From Rhodospirillales bacterium (GTDB taxonomy: Bacteria; Pseudomonadota; Alphaproteobacteria; Rhodospirillales; UBA2165): a stretch of 46,929 bases of DNA. The number at the start of each line of letters is the position of its first letter. The first letter of the stretch is position 1. A program made the position numbers and the translations under genes. Shown piece by piece: positions 8,532 to 21,244 of the stretch. The notes under the pieces were generated by a model. That model worked only from the letters and a program-made list of their open reading frames with translations. It was not told where the DNA came from and ran no database searches. The stretch covers positions 32,183-79,111 of the forward strand of contig JAPPFK010000177.1 in the NCBI GenBank assembly GCA_028823885.1, written 5' to 3'.

Positions 8532-8760
8532 TCATGAAACGGTCGCCAGCACCCGCACCCAGGTCGCCAGCCAGCTTTTCCCGGTCATCGCGTTTCCCGA
8601 ACACCATTCCCGGCGGGCTTTCTGGACGTCTTCCGATTGCCACCAGTGATCGATCGCGCCGGTATGCTTCTCGACAAACTCAAGATCGGCGATGTCCGAC
8701 TCCGCGTCGACGTGCTGACGATACTTCAACTTCGAACGGGCAGACGGCGGCAGGAAATTT
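8532..8760 (-). pseudogene. C-terminal remnant of a second LIC12162-like transferase
   Basis: DHWWQSEDVQKARREWCSGNAMTGKSWLATWVRVL resembles EGWWRSEAVQSARRAWCHRYARTAMLWQWHWAKAL of the adjacent full-length gene. Confidence 0.55.
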
Positions 8761-10546
8761 ATGAACCGGATTTTGCGGAGCCGGGAATGGGGTCCGGAAT
8801 TGACGAAACGGTGCCCGGTCCGCGCGCAAGTTGCCAAAGAGCCTTGGCCCAATGCCATTGCCACAGCATCGCGGTGCGAGCGTACCGATGACACCAGGCC
8901 CGGCGCGCAGACTGAACCGCTTCACTTCGCCACCATCCCTCGATGTCGTCCCAAATCTCATTCACCTTGGCGGCAGCGGACGGGGCATCACGATGGATGA
9001 GGCCGCAATCGGCCAATGCATCAAGGTAGGGGGCGGCCTGACGGCTCATTGGCCAATCGTCCGGGTTCCAGTAGGCAATCGTCGGAACGTTCGCGGCGAG
9101 AGCTTCCAGGAATGAGGTGCCGGGGTAATCGATAACGGCCAGTTTGCAGCGCAGCATTTCCGGAACCAGCGGGCCTTCCAGGACCTTCAGGTCCGGAAAA
9201 GACCGCTGAAGGTAAGGGGCGTCCAACAGCGTTTTGATTTTTTCGTACGGACGATAGGCAAGCTGTTCCCTGATGGCGCCGTTCAGCCCTCCGACAAACT
9301 CTCTCTTCATCCGCCGGTAGACCAGCCACCGGGAGAGGCTTGGATCTGAGTGGAATCGGTGGCCATAAACCTCCATGCACGTGCCGATGAAAATCAGTTT
9401 TTGGTTTTGGCGTCCATGGGCATTTCTGATCCGGCTCAGATGGGGTGACGGAACAGGGACAAACTTCGCCGCCGCGTCCTCTTGTTCCTTCCAGCCCCAG
9501 GTCAGGAACGCATGCCCTGCATATTCGGAATGAGCAGGCACAGGCGTTGCGATGCTCGTGCCGTAGTGTCCCCCATGCTGCGCGCCGACGACCCGCTCTC
9601 CCCGCTCAAGGGCGATTGCCGTGAGGAAGTTGTTTTCCGTGAGTTGGCTGCCCAGATTGTCGACAAATAAGCGACCCGGCGCAAAACGCCGTCGTGATGC
9701 CCATGCATCCCAGCGGGAAAAATCGGCGCCGTAGCAGGCGGGCCGGGTGGCGCTCACCAACCGCCCGTAAAGCCGCAAAAACGCGTCGGGAAACCTGTCC
9801 TCTATATTTCGGTCGATGGTCTCGGTTTCCGTTTGGTCCGAGAGATGGGTGCTTCGCGGCAAGAGGCTCAACATGACGGAAAAGGGCAGTTTCCAAACAC
9901 GCACGCCATGAGCATGATTAAATGGAAGGTGCCCCAATAGTTGCCGTAGACGACTCCTGGTGACCGTCGGGCAGCCTGTTGGCAAGTCCGGCTCGGGCTT
10001 TTCGCGAATTTCGATCAATTGCCACGATGGGGGGCAAAGTTCGCGCACGATAATTGAAGATACCCAATGGTCGAACAGCCGGCTCCGGTTCATCCGTTGA
10101 TAGAATTCCTCGATTTCGAGGCTCGGCCACGCACGCCTGTCCGGGTGTACAAATACGCTGAACGGCTCGTTGCCGTGACGTTCAACCATGGCGGAAACGT
10201 ACAGGTAACGCCGCCATAACAGCTGAGCGCAGGTCATCAGCCAGACATAAAGCAACGATCGCCAGTAGCGGCTGCCATGGCTGCCGCCGGAACCGAGGTC
10301 GATATCCTGGCCAAGCCGCTCCGCGGTCAGCAATGCGAGTTGCTCGGTGTCATCGCACGCCGATTTCAGCTCCGCCGGCGAGCGGATCGGTTCTTCGAAA
10401 GGCAGCCTGTCCCAGCCGGGAAACCGGTCCTCGGCGCCGACGAAGCACCAAGGCCCAACAACCAAATCGCGATCAAAATCGAAATCCGGCGGAGGTTCAG
10501 TCAGAAAAATCCGGCGAGACGTCAATGCGAGGGGGTCGTCCGTCAT
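8759..10546 (-). CDS. LIC12162-family putative transferase (surface glycan cluster)
   Basis: long ORF with RIFLTEPPPDFDFDRDLVVGPWCF, ERVVGAQHGGHYGT, AVIDYPGTSFLEALAANVPTIAYWNPDDWPMS; the listed 10549 start is a TTG, ATG at 10546 preferred. Confidence 0.72.
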   Translation of the reverse strand: MTDDPLALTSRRIFLTEPPPDFDFDRDLVVGPWCFVGAEDRFPGWDRLPFEEPIRSPAELKSACDDTEQLALLTAERLGQDIDLGSGGSHGSRYWRSLLYVWLMTCAQLLWRRYLYVSAMVERHGNEPFSVFVHPDRRAWPSLEIEEFYQRMNRSRLFDHWVSSIIVRELCPPSWQLIEIREKPEPDLPTGCPTVTRSRLRQLLGHLPFNHAHGVRVWKLPFSVMLSLLPRSTHLSDQTETETIDRNIEDRFPDAFLRLYGRLVSATRPACYGADFSRWDAWASRRRFAPGRLFVDNLGSQLTENNFLTAIALERGERVVGAQHGGHYGTSIATPVPAHSEYAGHAFLTWGWKEQEDAAAKFVPVPSPHLSRIRNAHGRQNQKLIFIGTCMEVYGHRFHSDPSLSRWLVYRRMKREFVGGLNGAIREQLAYRPYEKIKTLLDAPYLQRSFPDLKVLEGPLVPEMLRCKLAVIDYPGTSFLEALAANVPTIAYWNPDDWPMSRQAAPYLDALADCGLIHRDAPSAAAKVNEIWDDIEGWWRSEAVQSARRAWCHRYARTAMLWQWHWAKALWQLARGPGTVSSIPDPIPGSAKSGS

Positions 10547-10689
10547 CAAAGCACTTGGCGCCGGGGATCTTCACAGGCCTGATCCATGTCCTCGAATTCT
10601 CCCGCACCGACATGAGGTGCAACAACTCCGCCGCATCCCAATATTTCATCGTCCGGATGCGCGGCGGCCACCGGAACCGAACTCGTCAT
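10546..10689 (-). pseudogene. 47-aa ORF equal to the N-terminal end of a PIG-L deacetylase
   Basis: MTSSVPVAAAHPDDEILGCGGVVAPHVGAGEFEDMDQACEDPRRQVL*; AHPDDEILGCGG is the PIG-L metal motif; ATGA overlap with wbqC stop and TGATG overlap with the next start. Confidence 0.7.
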
Positions 10690-11390
10690 ATGGTGTTCTC
10701 TCCATTGCGAAGAATGTCCAGGCTCTCAGGCCCGTGGTTGAAGAGAAGGTCGATTACCGACATGAACGGTTCAAAACCTGGAAACAACTGCGGGTACGTG
10801 GGATGCCGATAGTCATGAAACGACAGCTCGATATTCGCATTTTCGAACGCTGTTTGATCGAGATAGTCGCGGCCGAATGGCCCGGAGATATAGCGACTCG
10901 CGCCGGCTGCCTTACAGAGGTCGACGACAAGATCAGCCTTGACGCTTTCGACATTCATCTCCGCGCTGGACCGCGTCGGGACCGTAATGCCGAGTTGCTG
11001 AAAAAGTACGCCGTTCACCGCTTCGATTACTTCCAGAAGGTTTGTCCAGGGTCTGTCGTATATGGGCCATAGCGCCGATGCCACTAAATCGAAATATGGC
11101 GCGCGCCGGTAGCAGGCTTCGATAGAACGCCAGTGCTTGACTTGCCAACGCATCGTGTCCGCAACTTCGACTTGGTTGATCGGCTGGCGTATACCCTTCG
11201 AATGTCGAATTGGAACGGTAAGCCAGCACCAGCCTTGGGCCGTTCTTATACGATTGCGATTGACGAACTGGTTTCGATCACCCACGGAAATCGCGACATG
11301 ATCGAGTGTGATCAGCAAGTCACTCCGAAGAACGCGATCGAAATAGCCGAGCCACGGCAAGTAGGCCGGCTGCATGATGGAGACGATCAC
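10686..11390 (-). CDS. WbqC-like family protein
   Basis: MIVSIMQPAYLPWLGYFDRVLRSDLLITLDHVAISVGDRNQFVNRNRIRTAQGWCWLTVPI. Confidence 0.85.
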   Translation of the reverse strand: MIVSIMQPAYLPWLGYFDRVLRSDLLITLDHVAISVGDRNQFVNRNRIRTAQGWCWLTVPIRHSKGIRQPINQVEVADTMRWQVKHWRSIEACYRRAPYFDLVASALWPIYDRPWTNLLEVIEAVNGVLFQQLGITVPTRSSAEMNVESVKADLVVDLCKAAGASRYISGPFGRDYLDQTAFENANIELSFHDYRHPTYPQLFPGFEPFMSVIDLLFNHGPESLDILRNGENTI

Positions 11391-12043
11391 GCTCTCCGCG
11401 CTTCCCGCCGCAAGAACACCGTGAAGTCGCCCCGGTGATAGTCGTGACGCAGAGTCGCGAAAGGCGTTAGCGTGAAGCAGAAGCGCAGAACCGCCGCCGG
11501 GTCCTCCCGGTACTCTCCTTCGTCTTGACGCTCGGCGTGGGTGCTCAGGCAGTTAAAGGCGAGGCTCACCTCGGCGAACCGGTAGAGATGGGTCACGGCT
11601 GCCTGGAGATAGTCGAACGGAGCCGCTTGCCGGGTGGAGAAAATGCCGCTCGCAATTACATGGTGCGCACGGTACGAAGCGTCGAGATCAAACAGGTCTG
11701 CGACCTCGAAGCGCGCTTCCGGGAAACGCGCGCGCGCGATCGAAACCATCTCCGGCGTGAGGTCGACACCGCAATAGTCCACGCAATACCCGTTCTCGAG
11801 CAGCCAGGCGAAGAGGTCGCCCTGGCCGCAACCGATGTCGAGCAGGCTTGCCTCGGGATCGAACCCTCCGGACGCGAGCACTTCGAAGCGCGCGGTCTGG
11901 CTCCTCGAATCACGCCAGCCAAGTGCCTGAATGTCGACACCGAAGCGATCGACCAGATTCCGGAAATGATTGATGGTGTGGTGATCGTCCGCTGTCCAAG
12001 CCGCCTTGTGCGGCGGTGCGGTCGAGCCTTCCTTGTCAGTCAT
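11387..12043 (-). CDS. class I SAM-dependent methyltransferase
   Basis: SLLDIGCGQGDLFAWLLENG, GVDLTPEMVSIARARFP. Confidence 0.85.
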   Translation of the reverse strand: MTDKEGSTAPPHKAAWTADDHHTINHFRNLVDRFGVDIQALGWRDSRSQTARFEVLASGGFDPEASLLDIGCGQGDLFAWLLENGYCVDYCGVDLTPEMVSIARARFPEARFEVADLFDLDASYRAHHVIASGIFSTRQAAPFDYLQAAVTHLYRFAEVSLAFNCLSTHAERQDEGEYREDPAAVLRFCFTLTPFATLRHDYHRGDFTVFLRREARRA

Positions 12044-12088
12044 CGCGGCCGCTGTCCAACGTGTATGCGGTATGGTCGGGACGCAAGG

Positions 12089-12775
12089 TTACGCGCTCGC
12101 CTCCTTCTCCGCGACGATCCGCCACTCCGCATGGACCAGGTTATTCCCGTCGAGCAGGTCCGAACGTTCCATATGTTCGAGAATCCGAATGCGCCATGGC
12201 GCGGGCAATGCGCGTTCCACGTCGTCCCGCCCGTAAAAGGAGATGCCGCCGGCGCCGATCAAACTGCCTCGCGCGATGTTCTCGACAAGACCGTCGGCGC
12301 CGGGCGTGCCGGCGGCGGCGCTGCCGTGTCGTTCGCTGTAGGGATTGAAGAAGAAGAACCCGCCGGAACGGAGCACCCGCGCCACCTCCGCCACGGCTGT
12401 CCTGCCTGCCGCATGGCCGACACACGAGAGCGCGGCGCGATCCAGCGCAAGATCGAAGGAGTCATCATCGAAGGGTAAATCATCGAATGTGGCGACGCGG
12501 AAATCGCCGATGAGTCCGTCTCGGGCAAAACGCTCGCGGGCATACGCTATGGCGGATGGGCTTCCGTCGATACCGCAGACTGCGAAGCCTTCGCGTGCCG
12601 CGAACCAAAGATTGCTCCCTGTTCCGCAGCCCACTTCCAAGATGCGCACATTCTCGCGGGCACGCTCCTTGGGTGCGTAGCGAAACACGAAGGAAACCAC
12701 CGCATCCCACGGATAAAGCTGGCGGTGCCCGGCTGCGTAGCTCGTCTCCCACACCGGATCGACGCGCGCACTCAC
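12089..12775 (-). CDS. class I SAM-dependent methyltransferase
   Basis: VRILEVGCGTGSNLWFAAREGFAVCGIDGSPSAIAYARERF; GTG start at 12775 overlaps NeuB-like TGA (GTGA). Confidence 0.83.
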   Translation of the reverse strand: MSARVDPVWETSYAAGHRQLYPWDAVVSFVFRYAPKERARENVRILEVGCGTGSNLWFAAREGFAVCGIDGSPSAIAYARERFARDGLIGDFRVATFDDLPFDDDSFDLALDRAALSCVGHAAGRTAVAEVARVLRSGGFFFFNPYSERHGSAAAGTPGADGLVENIARGSLIGAGGISFYGRDDVERALPAPWRIRILEHMERSDLLDGNNLVHAEWRIVAEKEASA

Positions 12776-13830
12776 CGGACGAAGTCGCTCTCGTCGAATA
12801 CGTGCCCGCGCTCTACGGCGCATTTCAGCGCACGACCGATCAGGGTTGAGACGAGCGCGGGCCGGTAGCCCGTACCCGGCCGGCGAAAGGCCACATCCGC
12901 GCGCTCCAGCTGGTGGCCCGCGGAAAGCCCGCCGGCGGCGACACACGAGAGCCGATAGCTCATGCGCGCCTCCGCCTCTCCGTCGGCGGGTGCGATCGCG
13001 GCCGAGCCCAATCCTTCTTCCACCGCGCGCACGCCCTTGATCAGCGACTCGAGTTCTCGGGGATCCGCCGAGAAGGCATGGTCGGGCCCGGGAAGGTCGT
13101 GTCTGAGCGTGACATGTTTTTCGACCACGGCGGCACCGAGAGCAACGGCAATCAACGCCGCCATCTCGCCCCGCGAATGGTCGCTGAAGCCAATCACGCA
13201 GTCGAATGCCGCGGCGAGCGATTGCATGCGGCGCAGGTTCAACTGATCGACCGGCGTCGGGTAGGCGGAGACGCAATGAAGCAAGACAAGGTTTCGTCCG
13301 CCCGCGCCGCGATAGGCTCCGACTGCCTCGGCGACTTCTTCCTCCGTGGCCATGCCGGTCGACAGGATGGTGGGGCGGCCGCTGCGCGCCATCGCCACGA
13401 TCAGATCCAGATGCCCCAGATAGTCGGAGCCGTTTTTCAGTGCGGGCACGTCGAGCGCCAACAGCTCAGCGACGCCTTCCTCACTGGTCGGCGTGCTCAG
13501 AAACGATATGCCATGCCGATCGCAGGCATCGCGCAGAAAGACAAGATCGTCGCCGGTGATCTCGCACCGCTTGAACAGGTCGAATTGCGATTCGACCACG
13601 TTCTCGCCTTGAGAGAGATAGCTGTAGGTCATCGACCGGTCCGAGAGGAAATCCTCGGCGCGGTAGTTCTGAAACTTGACGGCGTCGGCGCCGGCGGCGG
13701 CGGCGGCGGCAATGGTTTGCTCGGCCAGCGCCCTCTCGCCATTGTGGTTGATGCCGATCTCCGCGATCACATAGCAGGGATGGCCAGGGCCAACAGCGCG
13801 TCCTCCGATTTCTATCGGGGCGATGCTCAC
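12772..13830 (-). CDS. pseI: NeuB-family nonulosonic acid synthase (pseudaminic/legionaminic synthase type) with C-terminal SAF domain
   Basis: CYVIAEIGINHNGERALAEQTIAAAAAAGADAVKFQNY, GFSDHSRG, VVEKHVTLRHDLPGPDHAFSADP; family certain, exact sugar inferred from neighbours. Confidence 0.85.
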   Translation of the reverse strand: MSIAPIEIGGRAVGPGHPCYVIAEIGINHNGERALAEQTIAAAAAAGADAVKFQNYRAEDFLSDRSMTYSYLSQGENVVESQFDLFKRCEITGDDLVFLRDACDRHGISFLSTPTSEEGVAELLALDVPALKNGSDYLGHLDLIVAMARSGRPTILSTGMATEEEVAEAVGAYRGAGGRNLVLLHCVSAYPTPVDQLNLRRMQSLAAAFDCVIGFSDHSRGEMAALIAVALGAAVVEKHVTLRHDLPGPDHAFSADPRELESLIKGVRAVEEGLGSAAIAPADGEAEARMSYRLSCVAAGGLSAGHQLERADVAFRRPGTGYRPALVSTLIGRALKCAVERGHVFDESDFVR

Positions 13831-14030
13831 GCCACACTCCGTTCGGGCGGCAAGGCACGCATGTGAATCGCCTGCGCTACCCGCATCGTGCCGCGTGACC
13901 GGGCGTACGGAAACCGCCGCATCTCCGCCGCATAAACCTCAAGCGCGCGCCGCACGAATTCTTCGGCGTTCCAACGCCTGACCGTGGCGACGAGGTAGGT
14001 CCCCTTTTCTCCTGCGTTCATCAGGAGCAT
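13827..14030 (-). CDS. 67-aa coupled ORF, apparent chimera of formyltransferase N-terminus and PIG-L C-terminus
   Basis: GTYLVATVRRWNAEEF (formyltransferase-like start) followed by ALEVYAAEMRRFPYARSRGTMR, resembling ALEVYENELGAPPHPRSRESIR of the intact PIG-L at 20564-21244; overlaps both neighbours. Confidence 0.45.
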   Translation of the reverse strand: MLLMNAGEKGTYLVATVRRWNAEEFVRRALEVYAAEMRRFPYARSRGTMRVAQAIHMRALPPERSVA

Positions 14031-14735: not shown

Positions 14736-15788
14736 TCACGCCGGCCTGCCTGACGGCGCGACGCACCGCTCGGGCGAGAGGGCGGGGGCACCGATCGCCT
14801 GCGCCACCCGTCTTGCGCCCAGCCCGTCGACAAGTCGCCGGGCCGCGGAACCGGCAGCCACCAGTGCGTTCCGGTTCGCCACAAATGCGGAAACCGTTTC
14901 ATACAGAATCGGGGAGGATCGAGCATCTTCCAATTCGAGGGGAACAACCGCGCCGGCGCTTGCCGCGATCTCCAGGCCCGGTCTCTGGTTGTCGTTCAGC
15001 GCGATCGTCAAGCTTGGTACGCCCAAGCGGCAGCGTTCCCACATCGAAAGGCCGGCGGCGCCGATCGCCATATCCATGCCGCTCAATAGGGCGGCCATGT
15101 TCGGAACGTTCTCGTGCACGATGACGCCTTCGAGCTGCCGGATTTGCCGACGTCGCGGGTTGGCATCGGTGACGACGACATGGACGTTCAAGGATGCACG
15201 GCAGCCGACTCCGTCAAGCGCCTCCAAAACAGGCATCGTCAGCCCCGAGCCATCCGCCGATCCGAAAAAAACCAGGATGTTTTTCTTCCGTGTTCGAGAC
15301 GCCCTGCGCCGCCTTGTACGGAACTCGCGCCTCAATATCGAATACCTGGGCCCCAAGAGCACGGCGCTTGCCGGCGGCAGGAGGTCTCGATACGCATCGC
15401 TTCCCGGTGCCCGCCCCGCATCGACGAGTATGTCGCAATCGTGACGCCGGTTTGCCAGATCGTCGATCACAAGAATTTTGCTTCCGGATTTCCTGATTTG
15501 CGTCTCCCAGCGGTCATCCAGGCCGTAGTGGTCCACCACCACCCAATCGGATGCTTGCGCCGCCTCACGCGTGGCCTTCGCGTCGCTTCGCCAATCATCG
15601 TTGCAGTCAAGGATGCGAAAAGGAATTTCCGCGCGTGTCAGCATCGAGGTGCCCAACCTGTCGTCTGTCCGGGTTGCGAATTCGACCAGATTGCCCCGAG
15701 CCCCAAGTTCCTGCGCCAGCGCGATGCAGCGTCCCATATGGCCGGCCCCGGTCTTTGCCGAGGCATCGGCCCGAAGCAGAATTTTCAT
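14736..15788 (-). CDS. pseG: PseG-like UDP-sugar hydrolase (nonulosonic acid pathway)
   Basis: MKILLRADASAKTGAGHMGRCIALAQELGARG, VVDHYGLDDRWE, LVIDDLANRRHDCDILVDAG, GLSMWERCRLGVPSLTIALNDNQ. Confidence 0.87.
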   Translation of the reverse strand: MKILLRADASAKTGAGHMGRCIALAQELGARGNLVEFATRTDDRLGTSMLTRAEIPFRILDCNDDWRSDAKATREAAQASDWVVVDHYGLDDRWETQIRKSGSKILVIDDLANRRHDCDILVDAGRAPGSDAYRDLLPPASAVLLGPRYSILRREFRTRRRRASRTRKKNILVFFGSADGSGLTMPVLEALDGVGCRASLNVHVVVTDANPRRRQIRQLEGVIVHENVPNMAALLSGMDMAIGAAGLSMWERCRLGVPSLTIALNDNQRPGLEIAASAGAVVPLELEDARSSPILYETVSAFVANRNALVAAGSAARRLVDGLGARRVAQAIGAPALSPERCVAPSGRPA

Positions 15789-17284: not shown

Positions 17285-19327
17285 TTATCGTACCCGAAAT
17301 AACGGTTCGATCGGCGCGCCGGACAATTTTTCGTCCATCGAATCGTTGAAAACGGCGTCCGCGATGGCCGGCAATACCTCGTCGTATGCATCCAACAGAA
17401 TGTCGGCTTCCGACGCGGTGTGCGCCAACGAGATATTGTGGCTGGACTGGATTAATATTCCCCGCCGCAGCATTTCCTGAATAAACAGGGTATATTTCTG
17501 CCATTGGGTGTGCCGTTCGGAGTCCTTGAACGTCAGCAGCGTCCACGGAGCAAGCCCGTTGAGCGAGACCCATTCTCCAAGGCCGTGCGCTTCCAGCCTC
17601 GGCCGGAGCCCGGCCTGCACACGGCCGCCTACGTCCCATAAATGTTCGACCACGTCGTGATCGCGAATTTTTCCGATCGTGGCGAGCGCGGCGGCGAGCC
17701 CAACCGTTTCGCCGCCGGCCGTGAATGAAAAGAAAATCTCTTCCATTAAATGCATGATGTCGGCGCGTCCGACGATCGCGGAAATGGCGTATCCGTTTCC
17801 CATACCCTTGCCGAGAGTGGCGAGATCGGGCGTAACTCCGAAATATTCCTGTGCGCCCCCCAGCGCGTAACGAAACCCCGTGATGATCTCGTCCAGGACG
17901 AACAGCGCGCCATGATCATGGGCAAGGTCACGCACACCTTCGAGATATCCCGGCGCGGGCTCCGTCGCATTCATGGCTTCCATGATGACGCAGGCGAATT
18001 CGCCGGGACGGGACGACAGCAACCGGTCCAGCGCCTCGAGATCGTTGTAGGGAAAGGGATGCGTAAGCTCGCTGACCGCCTTGGGCACGCCGCGGTTGCG
18101 CGAGGTCGATCCGATATACCAGTCCTGCCAGCCGTGATATCCGCATACTGCCACGCGGTCCCGATTCGTATAGGCCCGGGCAAGCCGTACCGCGCCGGCG
18201 GTAGCATCCGATCCGTTTTTCCCGAATCGCGCCATCTCCGCGCATGGAACCACCTCGGCAAGGAGTTCCGCCAGCTCCATCTCCAGCCGCGTGGCCAGTG
18301 ACAGGGTAACGCCCTTGCCGATCCGATCGATGACCGCGCCGTCCACGTCGGGATCGCTATAGCCGAGGATGACCGGCAACAGGCCGTTCACGAAATCGAT
18401 ATATTCGTTGCCGTCCACGTCGACGACCCGGCACCCGTCCCCGCCTTCCAGAAACAGGGGCGCGCATCCCGCCGGGTAGGCGAGGTGGCTTTTGGAGAAG
18501 GTTTGCGATGCCAGGGGGATGACCCTCTCGGCCCGTTCCAGCATGAGGTTCGATTGCTCGTAGCCGCGATGTCCATCCGGCCACTGCCTGCGCGTCTTCT
18601 CGGCTCCCTGGTTGCGCCGAATGCCCATGTTGATGTCGGCCGTATCCGGGGCATCCCGCAACAGCGCAAGAATCTCGAGGTGGGACGGGACTTCCGTACC
18701 GCCGAGGCGGTCCGCCACGTCCCGGGCGAACGCCAGATCCGCCGCTTCGTCTACCGTCCAGCGCAAGCGGTGCAGGCCGGGGATCGGACACCTCACATTG
18801 GCCATGCGAAACAGGTTGCGTCTGTTTCTGATGTAGGGAGTCACATGTTCGCGGTCAGCAGGCGCCCGGGCGTTCTTCGCTGCCGACTGCAAGGCGGACC
18901 GCGAAAACACCTCGCAATCCAGTCCATCCGGCCATGTCGGCGGGTCGATGTTGCTCGCATAGTCAACGCCTGATTCGTCGAATAGCCCTAGCACGAGCTC
19001 GCATATGTGCGGGTCGAGAAAGGGGCAGTCGGCAGTCAGCCGCATGATCACGTCCGCGTCTTCGGCAACCGCCACCCGATGAAAGCGTTCGAGCACGTCA
19101 TCCCGGGGGCCTCGATAGCAGGACGCATGGTTGGCTTCGCACCAGGTCGCAATCCCGTCGTCGGCCGTATTGTCCGATGTGGCGACGACGACGGTGTCGA
19201 GACCGCGAATGCGTCGCGCGGCGGATAGGGTCCAGGCGATCATGGGTCGGCCCCCCAGGTCGGCCATCACCTTTCCCGGCAGGCGCGTGGACTGCATTCT
19301 TGCCTGTATGATCGCGATCTTTTTCAT
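17285..19327 (-). CDS. fusion of SpsF/PseF-type cytidylyltransferase and GSA-like class III aminotransferase
   Basis: N-term IAIIQARMQSTRLPGKVMADLGGRPMIAWTL, RLTADCPFLDP; C-term VIPLASQTFSKSHLAYPAG, RFGKNGSDATAGAVRLARAYT, VLDEIITGFR, ATLGKGMGNG. Confidence 0.88.
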   Translation of the reverse strand: MKKIAIIQARMQSTRLPGKVMADLGGRPMIAWTLSAARRIRGLDTVVVATSDNTADDGIATWCEANHASCYRGPRDDVLERFHRVAVAEDADVIMRLTADCPFLDPHICELVLGLFDESGVDYASNIDPPTWPDGLDCEVFSRSALQSAAKNARAPADREHVTPYIRNRRNLFRMANVRCPIPGLHRLRWTVDEAADLAFARDVADRLGGTEVPSHLEILALLRDAPDTADINMGIRRNQGAEKTRRQWPDGHRGYEQSNLMLERAERVIPLASQTFSKSHLAYPAGCAPLFLEGGDGCRVVDVDGNEYIDFVNGLLPVILGYSDPDVDGAVIDRIGKGVTLSLATRLEMELAELLAEVVPCAEMARFGKNGSDATAGAVRLARAYTNRDRVAVCGYHGWQDWYIGSTSRNRGVPKAVSELTHPFPYNDLEALDRLLSSRPGEFACVIMEAMNATEPAPGYLEGVRDLAHDHGALFVLDEIITGFRYALGGAQEYFGVTPDLATLGKGMGNGYAISAIVGRADIMHLMEEIFFSFTAGGETVGLAAALATIGKIRDHDVVEHLWDVGGRVQAGLRPRLEAHGLGEWVSLNGLAPWTLLTFKDSERHTQWQKYTLFIQEMLRRGILIQSSHNISLAHTASEADILLDAYDEVLPAIADAVFNDSMDEKLSGAPIEPLFRVR

Positions 19328-20563: not shown

Positions 20564-21244
20564 TCAGTTCCAGACGCTGCGCAGGGTCACGAATGCTTCG
20601 GCGGCCGATGCGCCGCATTCGGCGCCCCTTTTTGCCGCCAGCGCCCTGATGCTCTCGCGCGAGCGGGGATGAGGCGGGGCGCCCAGCTCGTTTTCGTAGA
20701 CCTCAAGCGCATTCATCTTGTCCTCCAGCACATCGTCGAGAACGACGAAGTGGTTGGGAAGGAAACTGAACGGCTCGGCGTTCGGCGCCTGGTCGGTGCT
20801 CGATGGCGTCTCGAACGCGAACACGCTGGGAGATTTGCCGCCGGCATGCATTGGGCGCAGCGCGACAAGAACGGCCTGGGCGGTGATCCGGTGATCATGG
20901 TTCAGGTCGCCCGGATGGTGGGTATAAACGACGTCCGCATCGAGGGCCGTCAGTTCACCGGTCAAAAGCGAGGCTATTTCGACCATTGGCACGGTATCGA
21001 AACGCTGATCCGGCAGATCGAATATTCTACGTATCGAACAACCCTCGCGATCCGCCCATTCGGCCGGTTTCGCGGTGCGCTCGGCGTCGCGCGGCGCGGC
21101 GGCGGTTTTCGCCGCTTCACCGTCGGACAAAATGATGATCTCGACCCGGTCGCCGGACCGGGCATGCCGGATCAAGGTCCCTCCGACGCCCAGAACTTCG
21201 TCGTCCGGATGGGCGGCCACGCATACGACGACCTTGCCCGTCAT
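20564..21244 (-). CDS. PIG-L family deacetylase
   Basis: VVCVAAHPDDEVLGVGGTLIRHARSGDRV, YTHHPGDLNHDHR. Confidence 0.88.
   Translation of the reverse strand: MTGKVVVCVAAHPDDEVLGVGGTLIRHARSGDRVEIIILSDGEAAKTAAAPRDAERTAKPAEWADREGCSIRRIFDLPDQRFDTVPMVEIASLLTGELTALDADVVYTHHPGDLNHDHRITAQAVLVALRPMHAGGKSPSVFAFETPSSTDQAPNAEPFSFLPNHFVVLDDVLEDKMNALEVYENELGAPPHPRSRESIRALAAKRGAECGASAAEAFVTLRSVWN

Follow-up and report, generated by a model that had tools for sequence, protein, structure and literature searches.

What is a 47-codon open reading frame that begins like a deacetylase and fills the whole space between two intact genes of a surface-glycan cluster—a small gene, a leader, or a remnant? The window (the whole 46,929-nucleotide stretch of Rhodospirillales bacterium DNA that was analyzed) carries this frame on its minus strand at 10689..10546, with the translation MTSSVPVAAAHPDDEILGCGGVVAPHVGAGEFEDMDQACEDPRRQVL followed by a stop. 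At its start, the frame overlaps wbqC as ATGA (wbqC stop TGA 10688-10686, frame ATG 10689-10687): On the minus strand the wbqC 3′ end reads ..AACACCATATGA.., and the frame begins at that ATG (10689). At its end (..GTGCTTTGATGACG..), it overlaps the LIC12162 gene as TGATG, with the stop TGA (10548-10546) and the LIC12162 ATG (10546-10544) having one base in common. An initial annotation had described the frame and both overlaps in this way, and the sequence agrees. The features of the locus are as follows.

8532..8654, minus strand: C-terminal remnant left by a second LIC12162-type gene, immediately beyond the intact LIC12162 gene
8759..10546, minus strand: intact LIC12162 family transferase gene (TIGR04331, blastn)
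10546..10689, minus strand: the 47-codon frame, a chimera of PIG-L stump and methyltransferase scrap
10552..10603, minus strand: methyltransferase scrap (class I SAM type), matching about codons 22-39 of the gene in genome G001 at 45/52 bases and in frame with the PIG-L stump
10603..10689, minus strand: codons 1-29/30 of a PIG-L-type deacetylase gene, a stump that contains the HPDDE metal motif and immediately follows wbqC
10686..11390, minus strand: intact wbqC (Pfam PF08889, E 7.7e-71)
11387..13830, minus strand: rest of the conserved cassette, with neuB at 12772-13830 and methyltransferase genes at 12089-about 12775 and 11387-12043

The start of the frame resembles a PIG-L deacetylase beyond chance. 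The Pfam PIG-L profile matches the 47-codon frame with 22 bits (E 2.4e-4), short of the 28.2-bit gathering score since the frame covers profile positions 4-25 only. A second profile, built from wbqC-linked PIG-L proteins and run on the 1177 frames of the window, scores the frame at 32 bits (E about 5e-9, profile positions 2-31) and ranks it second, after the intact PIG-L gene at 20564-21244. Both searches bear out the original reading of a PIG-L N terminus with its metal motif in a short frame. With wbqC-linked PIG-L/LmbE-like deacetylases (Pfam PF02585), the frame shares the N-terminal ~30 residues, the HPDDE metal-binding motif, and the place directly after wbqC. The full-length domain of some 220 residues, with its later conserved Asp/His region, is nevertheless absent, with only profile positions 2-31 of about 227 represented; the frame is without the remaining ~195 residues and therefore cannot be an enzyme. 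Its PIG-L part is a remnant and presumably no functional member of the PIG-L deacetylases.

The cluster also holds an intact PIG-L deacetylase gene (20564-21244, minus strand), which follows a DegT-type aminotransferase gene with an ATGA overlap and is probably the cluster's working deacetylase. The short frame as a recent duplicate of this gene is ruled out, the two sharing just 53% identity over 32 aa.

Related operons place an intact PIG-L gene where the window has the stump. We gathered WbqC relatives from 297 related genomes and a species collection and examined 43 other wbqC loci, in 11 of which a full-length, co-oriented PIG-L gene lies directly after wbqC. This comparison, proposed with the initial annotation, thus returns operons of the kind sought and supports its suggestion that a second deacetylase gene once stood here. 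The order neuB–methyltransferase–methyltransferase upstream of wbqC is common to the window and related loci. The longer order neuB–methyltransferase–methyltransferase–wbqC–PIG-L recurs in Pelagibius (L055), Oleisolibacter (L056), and Tepidamorphaceae (L061), differing from the window in that the window's PIG-L is a fragment; neuB–methyltransferase (MTup)–wbqC–PIG-L is found in L057, L058, L062 (a gammaproteobacterium), and L063 (Kiritimatiellia). Since an intact PIG-L gene follows wbqC in a shared operon order, the first ~30 codons of the frame are the stump of a real PIG-L gene, and the site after wbqC is an old PIG-L position. A LIC12162 gene directly follows PIG-L in G029, with an apparent GTGA overlap, and directly follows wbqC in G058. 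We infer the parental arrangement because the complete order wbqC–PIG-L–methyltransferase–LIC12162 was found in no genome examined. Among the papers searched, none names WbqC together with PIG-L, and one genome comparison mentions LIC12162.

The tail of the frame comes from a different gene. Its codons 30-46 (GEFEDMDQACEDPRRQ) match codons 22-39 of a methyltransferase gene in G001, a genus-mate and the closest genome, at 45 of 52 bases (87%; L070:14661-14712), and BLAST of this scrap against the G001 genome gives E 7.9e-11. Where the initial annotation had the PIG-L frame "then diverge," the tail is methyltransferase sequence and not drifted PIG-L. The LIC12162 protein of G001 is 84% identical to the window's, and its gene is directly preceded by this methyltransferase (starting LKDPRSKPKRYQDFVIREGRLVGEFEDMYRACEDPWHQ), not by wbqC; scrap and LIC12162 gene keep the same order and strand in both genomes. 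Bases 8780-10543 of the window are 88.5% identical to G001 (blastn). Homology of the LIC12162 gene to G001 resumes at 10543, and about 670 G001 bases—most of the methyltransferase plus spacer—are missing from the window, with about 8 bases left unassigned; the 8-10 bases between the scrap and the LIC12162 start show no match to the methyltransferase 3′ end. No intact copy of the G001-type methyltransferase is present in G000. The scrap covers codons 22-39 only, and the SAM-binding motif (E-I-G-C-G), which lies at about residues 65-75, is absent from it. Because it comprises only 52 bases and is found weakly by a profile built without G001 (E 0.27), its identity as methyltransferase rests mainly on one genus-mate plus synteny.

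Between the G001 methyltransferase and LIC12162 genes lies a C-rich, palindrome-like stretch (CCCCTCACCTTGCCCCTCTCCCCCTGAAAGGGGGACGAGGGG, L070 about 15300-15385) that resembles a dispersed repeat element and has no counterpart in the window.

A second relic marks the far side of the block. Homology to G001 stops at 8780, within the final codons of the LIC12162 gene, and the relic at 8654-8532 encodes the C-terminal ~40 residues of another such protein (tblastn 47% over 36 aa, E 1.7e-6); its best external match is a G028 protein (32% over residues 14-88, E 3.6e-7). The LIC12162 gene of the window itself scores 337 bits against TIGR04331 (cut-off 225 bits). The ~1.8-kb block 8780-10603 lies between the PIG-L stump and a LIC12162-type C terminus, and relics on both sides are the pattern expected of mosaic replacement.

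We therefore hold it very likely that the 47-codon frame is a scar left by recombination and deletion in a surface-glycan cluster of the nonulosonic-acid type, with the stump of a PIG-L gene joined in frame to a methyltransferase scrap. As read from the alignments, the chimera runs from PIG-L codons 1-~30 through methyltransferase codons ~22-39 to the LIC12162 gene. The starting point would have been an ancestral cassette neuB–methyltransferase–methyltransferase–wbqC–PIG-L, in which PIG-L would have been cut to its first ~30 codons on fusion, at codon ~22, to an unrelated methyltransferase gene located before the LIC12162 gene. Illegitimate recombination at a short stretch of common bases (GGGAGA-like) is the probable mechanism. 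The join falls at GCGGGAGAATTC, where most PIG-L genes have ..GGN GAY.. and the methyltransferase has GTGGGAGAATTC. The few bases common to both may have guided the join, a step that we infer because the parental PIG-L gene is unavailable; no relic of an insertion sequence was seen there. A further deletion would have taken the rest of the methyltransferase up to the LIC12162 start, and the joined pieces, in frame by chance, would have left a 47-codon frame without enzymatic function separating wbqC from the LIC12162 gene. A reasonable history starts from a resident wbqC–PIG-L–LIC12162′ arrangement whose middle would have been exchanged for a methyltransferase–LIC12162 segment like that of G001, with the deletion in the methyltransferase following or accompanying this replacement.

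One alternative is a leader-like frame kept for coupling: Ribosomes from wbqC would enter via ATGA, terminate at TGATG, and reinitiate at the LIC12162 ATG, and the scar would have gained a regulatory or coupling role. Upstream ORFs coupled by a stop–start overlap act through termination–reinitiation, and the 47-codon frame has the same ATGA and TGATG overlaps and a downstream start without a Shine–Dalgarno sequence. Both overlaps are perfect and the frame is uninterrupted; no Shine–Dalgarno precedes the LIC12162 ATG (duplex −1.3 kcal/mol, no better than random), whereas one precedes the 47-codon frame (−6.4 kcal/mol), so ribosomes may well restart on the LIC12162 gene. Translational coupling as a by-product of the scar is possible on this layout. 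Unlike such upstream ORFs, however, the frame is not conserved between relatives, its origin is explained by the scar, and its coupling is putative. A short PIG-L frame at the site occurs in 0 of the 43 other wbqC loci, nor do these hold the conserved short ORF that would mark a conserved coupling leader, and the scar is known from one genome only. The ATGA overlap is already present in the intact wbqC–PIG-L pairs of several relatives (4 bases in L059, L061, and L016) and so is inherited, and degT, the intact PIG-L gene, and the cytidylyltransferase/aminotransferase ORF of the cluster likewise lack a Shine–Dalgarno. The leader proposed in the initial annotation is left without comparative support, and we judge it unlikely. 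The same low likelihood attaches to the stronger version, a two-gene scar turned working coupling leader, in which the LIC12162 transferase would require translation of the chimera and the upstream frame would set glycan-enzyme stoichiometry. The putative coupling follows from the operon layout, with its several overlapping genes without Shine–Dalgarno sequences, and does not in itself point to selection for a leader. We regard the 47-codon frame as an ordinary gene-shuffling scar rather than a conserved leader peptide.

A single precise internal deletion in one PIG-L gene, leaving its N and C terminus, had been offered as well and is very improbable: The PIG-L N terminus is present and a possible C-terminal relic exists elsewhere in the window (13827-14030), but the frame tail matches the methyltransferase (87% DNA identity) and not a PIG-L C terminus, and the possible relic lies 3.1 kb off, upstream of neuB. 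With a tail that is a piece of another gene, at least two junctions are required (PIG-L/methyltransferase and methyltransferase/LIC12162).

The small frame at 13827-14030 (minus strand) sits between a formyltransferase-like gene and neuB, with tight overlaps with both, and contains the PIG-L C-terminus-like stretch ALEVYAAEMRRFPYARSR. It scores 20 bits against the PIG-L profile (E 2.7e-5), is 57% identical over 23 aa to the intact PIG-L of G058, and has no Pfam match; it is possibly a second PIG-L relic.

The divergence of the scrap bears on its age and constraint. Its dS from G001 (0.24-0.28) is like that of the neighboring LIC12162 gene (0.31), which marks the scrap as old DNA rather than an assembly chimera. 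An assembly or sequencing artefact is hardly credible even for a draft genome of 208 contigs, since the two junctions lie within 60 bases and the inner 52 bases show as much divergence as the neighboring gene, which an assembly join could not give. In the motif GEFEDMYR..DPW, the scrap has changed the Y and the W, both kept in the homologues covering the motif. Its amino-acid changes exceed those of the LIC12162 gene, an excess without significance over 17 codons (as many occur in 21% of LIC12162 stretches of equal length), and its dN/dS points in the direction of relaxed constraint in a stretch too short for significance.

Comparable remnants are known from Salmonella O-antigen clusters, where wzy remnants lie between wbaV and wbaU in groups B1 and D1 and are ascribed to serial deletion and cluster recombination (PMC3715488). 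The window likewise has a truncated, non-functional glycan gene between intact genes of a surface-polysaccharide cluster; it differs in that scraps of two different genes are fused in frame and overlap both neighbors. The scar is of the same kind as known glycan-gene remnants, the in-frame fusion of two different scraps being a small twist. It illustrates module swapping in surface-sugar clusters, where relics flanking a 1.8-kb block mark cassette joins, and it shows that a small "coupled ORF" may carry a catalytic motif without being a gene. Should the scar indeed couple translation, it would offer a simple case of decay giving rise to a leader ORF.

Elsewhere in the cluster, a 680-aa ORF (17285-19327, minus strand) combines a cytidylyltransferase domain (CTP_transf_3) with a class III aminotransferase, an uncommon-looking fusion for a nonulosonic acid cluster.
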